Positions 11,560-30,887 of a DNA stretch of 35,514 nucleotides are shown in pieces. A program made the translations under genes and the position numbers. The DNA is from Herpetosiphonaceae bacterium. Lineage in GTDB: Bacteria > Chloroflexota > Chloroflexia > Chloroflexales > Herpetosiphonaceae. Under the pieces are notes generated by a model. The model did not search any database, had not been told where the DNA came from, and was given only the letters and a program-made list of their open reading frames with translations. Every line of letters starts with the position of its first letter. Positions within the stretch are counted from its first letter, which is position 1. The stretch lies in NCBI GenBank assembly GCA_013813565.1, contig JACCRK010000296.1, positions 1 to 35,514 on the forward strand, written 5' to 3'.

Positions 11560-12498
11560 ATGTCATCGTTTACCTCGGGGCAACTTGCCAGCGCCAAGGT
11601 CGCCGCAGCGCGGCAGCGGCGGATCAAACGCACCAAAACGCTTACGATTCTCGCCTTTCTCCTCCCCGGTTTTATCTTGCTTGCCGTCTTTATGCTGTAC
11701 CCCGTTGGCGCATCAACCTACTACAGCTTGTTCAAATGGAATGGGCTGGGGCCGCGCGAAACCTTTGTGGGGCTGGAAAACTATCAGCGCGTGCTGAGCC
11801 ACAATGTGTTTCTGGGTGCGCTCAAGCACTCGCTGCTGCTGGTGGTACTGTCGCTGCTGATCCAGCTGCCGATGGCGCTGGGACTGGCGCTGCTGCTGGT
11901 GCGCAGCAAGATTCGCGGCAAGCGTTTTCTGCGGGCGATCTTCTTTATCCCCTACGTCTTCTCGGAAGTCATCACGGCGATCTTGTGGCTGTATGTCTAT
12001 CACCCCAGCAACGGGCTGGCGAATGTGATGCTGGGGAGCGTTGGCATCGATGGCATGGCCTGGCTCGCGAACCGCACCACCGTCCTGCCGGCGATCTTCA
12101 TTGTGCTGACCTGGAAGTTCTTCGGCTTTCATATGCTGCTGTATATGGCGGCCATCCAGAACGTCCCGCGCGATCTGGAGGACGCAGCCCGAGTCAATGG
12201 CGCCGATGAGTTCGCTGTTTTACGGTATGTCACCTTGCCGATGATGGGCAGCACCATCAGGCTCTCGGTTTTCCTGTCGATCCTTGGCTCGCTGCAGCAG
12301 TTCATCATTGTGTGGCTGCTCACCGAGGGCGGGCCGGTGTCGTCCAGCGAGCTGGTGGTGACCTACCTGATGAAATTCGGCATCACCCGCATGGCGCTTG
12401 GCTACGGCAGCACGGTGGCGGTGCTGATGTTCTTGCTGACGCTGGTGTTCTCGATCGGCTACCAGCGCACAATTATGCGCCAGGACTACCTGGATTAG
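11560..12498 (+). CDS. ABC sugar transporter permease, MalF type
   Basis: This 312-aa inner-membrane protein has six predicted hydrophobic segments, the first around 30-50. The cytoplasmic coupling EAA loop reads VPRDLEDAARVNGADEFAVLRYVTLPMM near 205-232, the expected place for a CUT1 permease. AAGGAGG lies before the ATG. It pairs with the MalG-type permease at 12859. The usual few-base gap between such genes is broken here by a 353-bp element starting seven bases past this stop. No ATPase gene is in the operon, so a shared MsiK-like ATPase elsewhere is likely. Confidence 0.94.
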   Translation: MSSFTSGQLASAKVAAARQRRIKRTKTLTILAFLLPGFILLAVFMLYPVGASTYYSLFKWNGLGPRETFVGLENYQRVLSHNVFLGALKHSLLLVVLSLLIQLPMALGLALLLVRSKIRGKRFLRAIFFIPYVFSEVITAILWLYVYHPSNGLANVMLGSVGIDGMAWLANRTTVLPAIFIVLTWKFFGFHMLLYMAAIQNVPRDLEDAARVNGADEFAVLRYVTLPMMGSTIRLSVFLSILGSLQQFIIVWLLTEGGPVSSSELVVTYLMKFGITRMALGYGSTVAVLMFLLTLVFSIGYQRTIMRQDYLD

Positions 12499-12505
12499 GG
12501 GGCGG

Positions 12506-12858
12506 CTGTCACCAACCCCCCGCCAAGGCGGTGGGCTTGCACCTGACCCGCGGTCGGTGCATTGGCCCGTGGTGCTGGTTGGTCTCGGGAAACCAGCGGG
12601 CCTCTCTAGGTTGGGTGACATTGGCGGGTGGGTATCGCCAACAACCGCGATCCAGCACCGACCTCCACCGCATCCACGAACCGTGGCTGTTGCCAACCCA
12701 AAGCTGGATCACCGAGACATTTTATATCACCAATAGTAGCACATACGTGCGTAACCTGCAAGGAGTCCGTGGCCTCCTTGCACCCCTACGATCGTCTGAG
12801 GGGAACCTTGGCCGCATTCCTCCCCGCAGCACGCTACGGGGTTTCCAGCGGAGGATTT
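12506..12858 (+). mobile_element. HEARO/omega-RNA-like noncoding element, copy A, inserted between the two permease genes
   Basis: A 353-bp sequence is 96% identical, without indels, to 30376-30728 (14 differences). Visible helices include 12508-12517 pairing with 12609-12619 (10 bp, one bulge) and 12649-12656 with 12703-12710 (GATCCAGC/GCTGGATC). Local hairpins lie at 12621-12641, 12674-12686, 12757-12782, 12783-12803 and 12822-12841. The element ends in GGAGG and then the ATGAAA of the permease gene. Removing it leaves the MalF-type stop seven bases before the MalG-type start. Position next to ATGA, the structured RNA and its presence without an ORF fit the HEARO class (omega-RNA of IscB, IS200/IS605 superfamily). 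That family name is from memory and not confirmed by a model search. No transposase or nuclease is encoded. Confidence 0.75.
12850..12855 (+). promoter_or_regulatory. Element-borne Shine-Dalgarno with upstream anti-SD
   Basis: GGAGGA lies 3-4 bases before the MalG-type ATG and is the last part of element copy A. TCCTCC at 12818-12823 can pair with all six bases. The last two of those bases are also needed for the CCCCG/CGGGG hairpin at 12822-12841, so the two foldings compete. This arrangement could control translation start. Confidence 0.5.
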
Positions 12859-13683
12859 ATGAAATTAATCCGCACACTGCTGACCTATGGCGGCATCGGG
12901 TGCCTGCTGCTGCTGATGATCGCACCGGTGCTAACCGCCATGCTAGGCAGCGTCCGAACGACGGGTGAGTTTCTGTCCTCGCCTTTCGGGCTGCCAACCA
13001 GGGGCTTGCATTGGGAAAACTACGCCGGCATCCTGACGAGTTCATCGTTCTGGCGGGCGCTTGCCAACAGCATCTTCATCACGCTCACGGTCACCGCGCT
13101 GGTGGTGATGCTTTCCAGCATGCTCGCCTTCGTCTTCGCGCGCATGGAGTTTTGGGGCAAAAGCATCTGGTTTAACATCCTCTCGATCGGCATGCTCTTT
13201 CCGCTGGTCGTCGCCATCCTGCCGGTATTTATCCAGATCCGCGAGCTGAAGCTCATCAATAGCTACTGGGGGGTGATCCTGCCGATCGTCACCTTCAGCC
13301 TGCCGGGCAGCACGATTATTCTGCGCGGTTTTTTTCGCTCGATTCCGCGCGAGCTTGAGGATGCGGCCTATATCGACGGCTGCACGACCCCGCGCTTTTT
13401 CTGGCACATCCTGCTGCCGATGGCCCGCCCCGGCCTGGCCGCAGTGGCGACGATTACAGTTATCGCGGCCTGGAACGACTACTTTCTGGCCCTGCTGGTG
13501 CTCAACGATGCCGATAAATGGCCGCTGCCGCTGGGCATCATGCAGTTCCAGGGCCAGTTTGGCACCGACTGGGCCAAAGTGATGGCCTTCGTAACCCTAT
13601 TGATTATTCCGGCGGTGACCTTTTATATCTTCACCGAAAAGTACATCATCACCGGATTGACCGGTGGCGAGCTTAAGGGATAG
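12859..13683 (+). CDS. ABC sugar transporter permease, MalG type
   Basis: This 274-aa inner-membrane permease has six hydrophobic segments. Its EAA loop IPRELEDAAYIDGCTTPRFFWHILLPM lies near 170-195 and the C-terminus is FTEKYIITGLTGGELKG, typical of CUT1 MalG-like subunits. The frame is open upstream to 12628 through the element, but the ATG at 12859 follows GGAGG, gives the standard family length and matches the point where the two element copies stop being alike. Its natural ribosome-binding region has been separated from it by the element, so its translation now depends on the element's own 3' end. Confidence 0.93.
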   Translation: MKLIRTLLTYGGIGCLLLLMIAPVLTAMLGSVRTTGEFLSSPFGLPTRGLHWENYAGILTSSSFWRALANSIFITLTVTALVVMLSSMLAFVFARMEFWGKSIWFNILSIGMLFPLVVAILPVFIQIRELKLINSYWGVILPIVTFSLPGSTIILRGFFRSIPRELEDAAYIDGCTTPRFFWHILLPMARPGLAAVATITVIAAWNDYFLALLVLNDADKWPLPLGIMQFQGQFGTDWAKVMAFVTLLIIPAVTFYIFTEKYIITGLTGGELKG

Positions 13684-30338: not shown

Positions 30339-30375
30339 AGCTGCGGTGGATTTTGTTTTTTCGAGGAGAATTTCT

Positions 30376-30728
30376 CTGTCACCAACCCCCCGCCAAGGCG
30401 GTTGGCTTGCACCTGACCCGCGGTCGGCGCATTGGCCCGTGGTGCTGGTTGGTCTCGGGAAACCAGCGGGCCTATCTAGGTTGGGTGACATTGGCGGGTG
30501 GGTATCGCCAACAACCGCGATCCAGCACCGACCTCCACCGCATCCACGAACCGTGGCTGTTGCCAACCTAAAGCTGGATCACCGAGACATTGTATGGATC
30601 CAAGAATAGCACATACGTGCGTAATCTGCAAGTAGTCCGTGGCCTCCTTGCACCCCGACGATCGTCTGAGGGGAACCTTGGCCGCATTCCTCCCCGCAGC
30701 ACGCTACGGGGTTTCCAGCGGAGGATTT
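30376..30728 (+). mobile_element. HEARO/omega-RNA-like noncoding element, copy B
   Basis: This is the second copy of the 353-bp element at 12506-12858, 96% identical with no gaps. The two long-range helices and most of the local hairpins are kept. Half of the 14 differences fall in one 15-base patch (30592-30606). Its left neighbour sequence is CGAGGAGAATTTCT, and directly after it comes ATGAAACG. Joining these two gives a textbook Shine-Dalgarno and start codon, showing where the element entered. No ORF of an IscB-like nuclease or TnpA transposase is inside. Identity as HEARO/omega-RNA rests on architecture and the ATGA site, not on a model search. Confidence 0.75.
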
Positions 30729-30887
30729 ATGAAACGTTGGTTCTGGGCCATTATCGCGCTGGCTGCAGCTGTGCGTCTGATCGATCTGCAGCGCAAACTT
30801 GAGGCCGCCCGCTCGCGTGGCGATATGTATCGGGACATTTCTTCGCGGCTGGACCGCCAGCTCGCCGACCTGCAAAAACAGGCCTGA
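30729..30887 (+). CDS. Small membrane-anchored coiled-coil protein (52 aa)
   Basis: The protein begins MKRWFWAIIALAAAVRLIDLQ, a short N-terminal membrane anchor, and continues with a charged helical segment (LEAARSRGDMYRDISSRLDRQLADLQKQA) with heptad-like spacing. I do not recognise a family. The start follows the element's GGAGG, and the pre-insertion site also has a good Shine-Dalgarno (GAGGAG, eight bases), which argues that this tiny gene is real. A longer frame from 30639 lies inside the element and is not supported. Confidence 0.65.
   Translation: MKRWFWAIIALAAAVRLIDLQRKLEAARSRGDMYRDISSRLDRQLADLQKQA

Follow-up and report, generated by a model that had tools for sequence, protein, structure and literature searches.

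A dispersed gene-less repeat in a Herpetosiphonaceae genome probably carries a TnpB-type guide RNA on its minus strand

The 351-bp element found twice in the 35,514-nt stretch of DNA that we analyzed (hereafter the window) is likely to be a nonautonomous IS200/IS605-type PATE (palindrome-associated transposable element) bearing a TnpB-type omegaRNA on its minus strand, and it would rely on TnpB and TnpA supplied in trans. An earlier note on this DNA had seen in it a structured, protein-less, mobile and nonautonomous element at ATGA, and this description is supported by the present work. The same note likened the RNA to an omegaRNA of the IscB/HEARO kind; an OMEGA guide RNA, plausibly used in trans, is what our data favor, but not one of that kind.

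As previously described, two gap-free copies match at 339 of 353 positions (12506-12858 and 30376-30728), and this pair is the sole long repeat of the window. Comparison of the copies sets the bounds of the element at 12508-12858 and 30378-30728, two 351-bp units identical at 337 of 351 positions and read on the minus strand with, for copy 1, the left end (LE) at 12858 and the right end (RE) at 12508. A search of the whole genome, which the earlier note had suggested, gave at least five copies beyond the window pair, one full (C324:6594-6941, locus L003) and four ending at contig ends. Since all of these genomic copies, at least seven with three of them full, have different flanks around the same common unit, the window element is a dispersed repeat and not a chance resemblance. 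A blastn search with it over 60 relatives gave matches in its own genome only. In the C324 copy, the last bases of the LE are GGAGGTCAT instead of GGAGGATTT, and they are followed by ATGAAGTAA, so that no gene is fronted there.

Both window copies abut ATGA on the plus strand (12859-12862 and 30729-30732), in agreement with the earlier description; an ABC-transporter permease gene has its start codon in the former, and a 52-aa ORF starts at the latter. On the element strand this flank reads TCAT. The tetranucleotide is read directly from the sequence, while established IS200/IS605 biology leads us to presume that it is the TnpA target site or the TnpB TAM. No repeat that would correspond to a target duplication was seen flanking the window copies. 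The comparison of ends revealed a left-end hairpin (CCCCGtagcgtgctgCGGGG, 12822-12841, minus strand) in a region that matches at 85-87% over 39-40 nt the TnpB elements of contigs C365 and C165 (L008, L010), and the left end at C245 is similar as well. Indeed, the ends of the window element match those of both the IscB elements (L011, L012) and the TnpB elements (L008, L010) of its own genome: on the ATGA (TCAT) side, all three types share a GAAACCC-footed hairpin flanked by GAGGAATGC, while the opposite end reads CAAGCCC-hairpin-...TGAC. Since the three have the same type of ends, these appear to point to one set of IS200/IS605-type transposase signals. With no genes and thus no transposase ORF, no terminal inverted repeats, near-terminal palindromes, IS605-type ends and near-identical copies, the element resembles the PATEs (PMC3119063); it differs from them in carrying a conserved guide-RNA structure.

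The nature of this RNA emerged from covariance models. The first element model (R1), built on the plus strand as the earlier note had it, gave mostly chance matches but also two real, weak relatives from other genera (L025, L026). Both have the layout of the window element, lie directly before ATGA start codons and encode no protein; Rfam scans of the two matched no family. A model made from this pair alone, with the window sequences excluded (R2), matched copy 1 at 12621-12508 on the minus strand with an E-value of 5e-10 and copy 2 at 30491-30378, also minus, with 7e-11, about 55 kb being searched. Over 158 genomes of the class, R2 recovered numerous tnpB genes as well as additional solitary elements: tblastn found at more than 12 of its loci a same-strand tnpB gene ending at the match, and reading and alignment identified L014 as a further tnpB end. 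Over 400 genomes of the phylum, at E<=1e-4, it added few matches, such large searches scoring few candidates per genome. A third model (R3), from three window-family copies, gave full-length matches to four elements that we call class C (L025, L026, L054 and L058; E 1.9e-13, 7.9e-11, 1.5e-9 and 1.7e-6), and it matched the tnpB ends L008 and L010 of the host genome, which have Pfam matches to the TnpB families Cas12f1-like_TNB and OrfB_IS605, at E 1.7e-5. The right end, required by TnpA in any case, contributes part of the R3 score; when this end was removed, the match was kept in two of three cases (E 5e-5 and 0.008) and lost for L036, and the sequence-only similarity outside the right end is modest (z 1.5 to 4.6). 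The element thus resembles tnpB 3' ends in sequence and structure, on the tnpB strand. No tnpB gene lies beside the copies read, and we therefore claim TnpB membership for the RNA structure alone and not for a complete TnpB system. At another locus, L078 (G076:C49), stem 1, GTCAACC, a hairpin and GGTTGAC form a right end like that of tnpB; no tnpB was noticed in the stretch read there, and the locus is perhaps a remnant.

According to the R2 and R3 matches, the scaffold spans 12508-12722 in copy 1 (the R3 region) and 30378-30592 in copy 2, on the minus strand in both. Read 5' to 3' in copy 1, it has near its 5' end the strand GUCUCGG (12712-12718), which can pair with the P4b loop CCGAGAC (12582-12588) in a pseudoknot, PK2, whose class C counterpart is CCUGG/CCAGG. 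The pair table then gives a helix, P6, with an inner hairpin (12649-12710; strands 12703-12710 and 12649-12656), in which four pairs show two-sided changes in class C. Stem 1 (12609-12646; GGTTG at 12642-12646 with CAACC at 12609-12613, GGUUG/CAGCC in other copies) encloses a P5 hairpin and the strand GUCACC (12614-12619). It is followed by P4/P4b (12564-12602), which the pair tables and class C identify as the counterpart of stems 2/3, and by the right end (12508-12534) with a terminal hairpin (stem 4) and the bases GGUGAC, which pair with 12614-12619 and abut the guide. By TnpB omegaRNA logic, the presumed guide would be AGCCGCCCCCTAATCC, 16 nt of flanking DNA at 12492-12507, and its equivalent in copy 2 would lie at 30362-30377.

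This arrangement is that of the TnpB omegaRNA of the ISDra2 type (PMC10097598), where guide-adjacent bases likewise pair with a strand in the stem 1 loop, followed by stems 2/3, a terminal hairpin and a 3' guide from the right-end flank. In our elements, the pseudoknot strand flanked by stem 1 lies 72-143 nt upstream of the guide-adjacent bases. The window RNA differs from that of ISDra2 by the lack of tnpB overlap, by a promoter-like site of its own and by three additions, namely the 5' P6, its loop pseudoknot PK2 of seven pairs and the inserted P5 hairpin, of which the latter two are additions seen in the window copies. At solitary and tnpB loci alike, covariation gives the six-base pseudoknot at least seven forms (GUCACC/GGUGAC, GUCAAC/GUUGAC, GUCAGC/GCUGAC, GUCAGA/UCUGAC, GUCAAA/UUUGAC, GUCAAU/AUUGAC and GUAAGC/GCUUAC). 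For L008 and L010, the automatic search chose another GTCA, and the likely pair found by eye is GTCAGC/CTTGAC, with five positions including one G-U. In the class C alignment, 98.6% of cells are paired, a percentage that proves little alone as the structure was drawn on these four sequences; the main evidence is that 11 of the 54 pairs show a two-sided change, a number reached in none of 500 shuffles and never exceeding 2 in slid structures. A separate search with P4b-region patterns in public genomes and viral contigs returned seven stretches, which we treat as chance because R2 confirmed none of them and the R1 matches were short and weak.

One could also propose that the element is a plain MITE or PATE, whose hairpins serve TnpA as DNA and whose internal RNA structure is the leftover of a decayed tnpB element. 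The LE and RE of IS200/IS605 elements alone should indeed suffice for mobility by TnpA. Moreover, IS605 derivatives that lack a transposase abound in a haloarchaeon (PMC3119063). Leftovers would be expected to drift, however; our elements instead show, from one genus to another, a conserved interior (P6, PK2, stem 1 and P4) with compensatory changes, and their promoter-like sites have stayed in the same position. We thus consider this explanation unlikely.

The RNA most likely lies on the minus strand, since the homology to tnpB ends, the wobble pairs and the promoter-like sites all favor it. Among the one-sided helix changes of classes C and D (the latter being the window family), a manual count found that a G-U pair is kept in the minus-strand reading at nine positions and in the plus-strand reading alone at three. 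Promoter-like sites on the RNA strand, to the left of the RNA and with an N17 spacing, occur in most of the twelve solitary elements examined. They read TTGCAG-N17-TACTAT in copy 1 (12733-12761, minus strand) and TTGCAG-N17-TATTCT in copy 2 (30603-30631, minus strand), in each case just before the structured RNA. Scored against shuffles with a hand-written matrix, single sites gave p-values from 0.01 to 0.97, the three window-family copies being non-independent, and a stricter consensus scan found a match in L026 only and missed the window-copy sites. Individually, the 9-to-3 wobble asymmetry and the single promoter scores are weak evidence of strand; a minus-strand RNA with a promoter on the element is supported but not proven.

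The strand bears directly on the identity proposed earlier, a solitary IscB-type omegaRNA (HEARO or a variant), which would be read from the plus strand, take its guide from the 5' flank and use ATGA for its 3' TAM. The ATGA flank and the ends, both common to the IscB/HEARO elements of the same genome, speak in favor of such an RNA, and solitary copies are known there too: L013 (G000:C366:12067-12315, minus strand) is a HEARO without IscB that scores 72 bits against a gathering score of 83, has IS200/IS605-type ends and immediately precedes the ATGA of an HNH-endonuclease-like gene. But insertion directly before ATGA/GTGA is common to the local IS200/IS605-type elements and so does not discriminate for HEARO. 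The HEARO model RF02033 does not match copy 1 (E<=10) and finds nothing at threshold in the window, where no other Rfam family reaches threshold either; the same model detects real HEARO RNAs elsewhere in the genome, each accompanied by an IscB gene, at C231 (125 bits) and C224 (112 bits). Both full-length IscB genes of the genome already have their own HEARO. Homology to tnpB 3' ends, most one-sided pair changes and the promoter-like sites argue for the strand opposite to that of the earlier note, and the guide reads as 3', as in TnpB, at the other end of the RNA from the 5' guide of IscB. Its two long-range helices can both form, but 12508-12517/12609-12619 is better explained as the minus-strand pseudoknot GUCACC/GGUGAC adjoining stem 1. 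Altogether, an IscB-type RNA seems to us very unlikely. The genome also has three paralogous loci, L017 (G000:C254), L018 (G000:C401) and L019 (G000:C113), encoding a 275-329 aa protein with only an N-terminal RRXRR domain (PF14239), like IscB. The DNA just upstream is similar in all three, and L017 and L018 have downstream a conserved stretch, CCTTCCGTCGGCTGGG ... AAGGCTGGAAGTCTCAAAGTGGAGATTA; Rfam scans of these two gave nothing except weak sub-threshold mir-5881 matches in L018.

The position of the elements relative to genes deserves comment. In the orthologous permease pairs of G009 and G016, a gap of about 14-16 bp, free of any insert, separates the two genes; in the window, 9 bases and the element, followed by ATG, lie between them. 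These orthologs share 45-54% protein identity and thus do not fix the exact insertion junction. By inspection, 10 of 12 solitary elements directly precede an ORF start, as do three IscB/HEARO elements. A role as a 5'-UTR element, with control over the gene starting at ATGA, would fit this siting, which includes phosphoglycerate-kinase-like and EF-G-like genes, and the GGAGG that the LE of the window copies places close to the start codon, but it is highly improbable in view of an RNA better read antisense to the gene, of two sites (C324 and L059) followed by no real ORF, and of the ATGA target combined with selection against insertion within genes, which may explain the siting by themselves.

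The TnpB-type reading extends to other solitary elements. Class A (L046, L050, L052, L056) and class B (L053, L059) have ends and a core like those of the window element; L050 lies before a phosphoglycerate-kinase-like start codon and L056 before an EF-G-like GTG start. Solitary elements carry 5' parts that set them apart from tnpB-borne omegaRNAs: P6/PK2 and, in classes A, B and C, the motif GTGC-NAAGGC-hairpin-ACGGTTT-GCAC, which is absent from class D. A model of this 5' TAAGGC/ACGGTTT domain was dropped, its closing stem being not alignable. In Rfam scans, L050, L053 and L054 had no match. Meers et al. reportedly noted omegaRNA-bearing PATEs in their 2023 study of Geobacillus TnpB. RAGATH-18, the reRNA of IS607 TnpBs, is likewise a TnpB-family guide RNA but of the IS607 type; 64% of 16,029 such RNAs adjoin IS607 TnpBs and about a third do not (PMC11061315). 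It was matched in none of the Rfam scans of the window, L025, L026, L050, L053 and L054. PATEs (PMC3119063) and TnpB omegaRNA were thus already known; what is added here is this RNA family, together with its additional 5' structure and promoter-like site, and the finding of relatives in several genera.

As for the mechanism, the promoter-like site at the left end would drive transcription of the minus strand, giving a TnpB-type omegaRNA of approximately 215 nt that reaches the right end and continues into the flanking DNA, which would supply the guide. This RNA could then be loaded into TnpB from other elements. As the earlier note stated, neither iscB nor tnpA is seen in the window; the genome outside it has two IscB loci, two Y1 tnpA loci and several tnpB loci, an inventory of tnpA and tnpB made uncertain by an assembly (G000) of 417 contigs and 76% completeness. 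Because tnpA genes are present, a TnpA acting in trans is conceivable, its pairing with these ends being our supposition; it would cut the element out as single-stranded DNA and place it on the 3' side of TCAT. TnpB and the RNA, in trans, would cut TCAT-flanked empty sites, and the element would be copied back or kept, a form of retention or homing. On plasmids, TnpB has been reported to act as a gene drive for insertion sequences (PMC11870625). On the other hand, the RNA could have a partner other than TnpB, given that its 5' part (P6, PK2) has no known counterpart in tnpB-borne omegaRNA.

Cas12 probably descends from TnpB, whose guide RNA is as a rule coupled to the end of the tnpB gene. Since at least four RNA architectures in the class have promoter-like sites and conserved 5' parts, one could wonder whether the solitary elements are dedicated guide-RNA elements that behave as guide-only gene drives sitting at start codons and that may engage a partner, or exert regulation, in a manner unlike known TnpB; we hold this for a rather doubtful, speculative proposal. 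Gene-less guide-RNA families would show a guide RNA evolving free of coding sequence, and a parallel can be drawn with the split between guide RNA and effector that Cas12 systems must once have undergone. Finally, judging from the element families, a single TnpA and a single TnpB could serve several of them in a cell.
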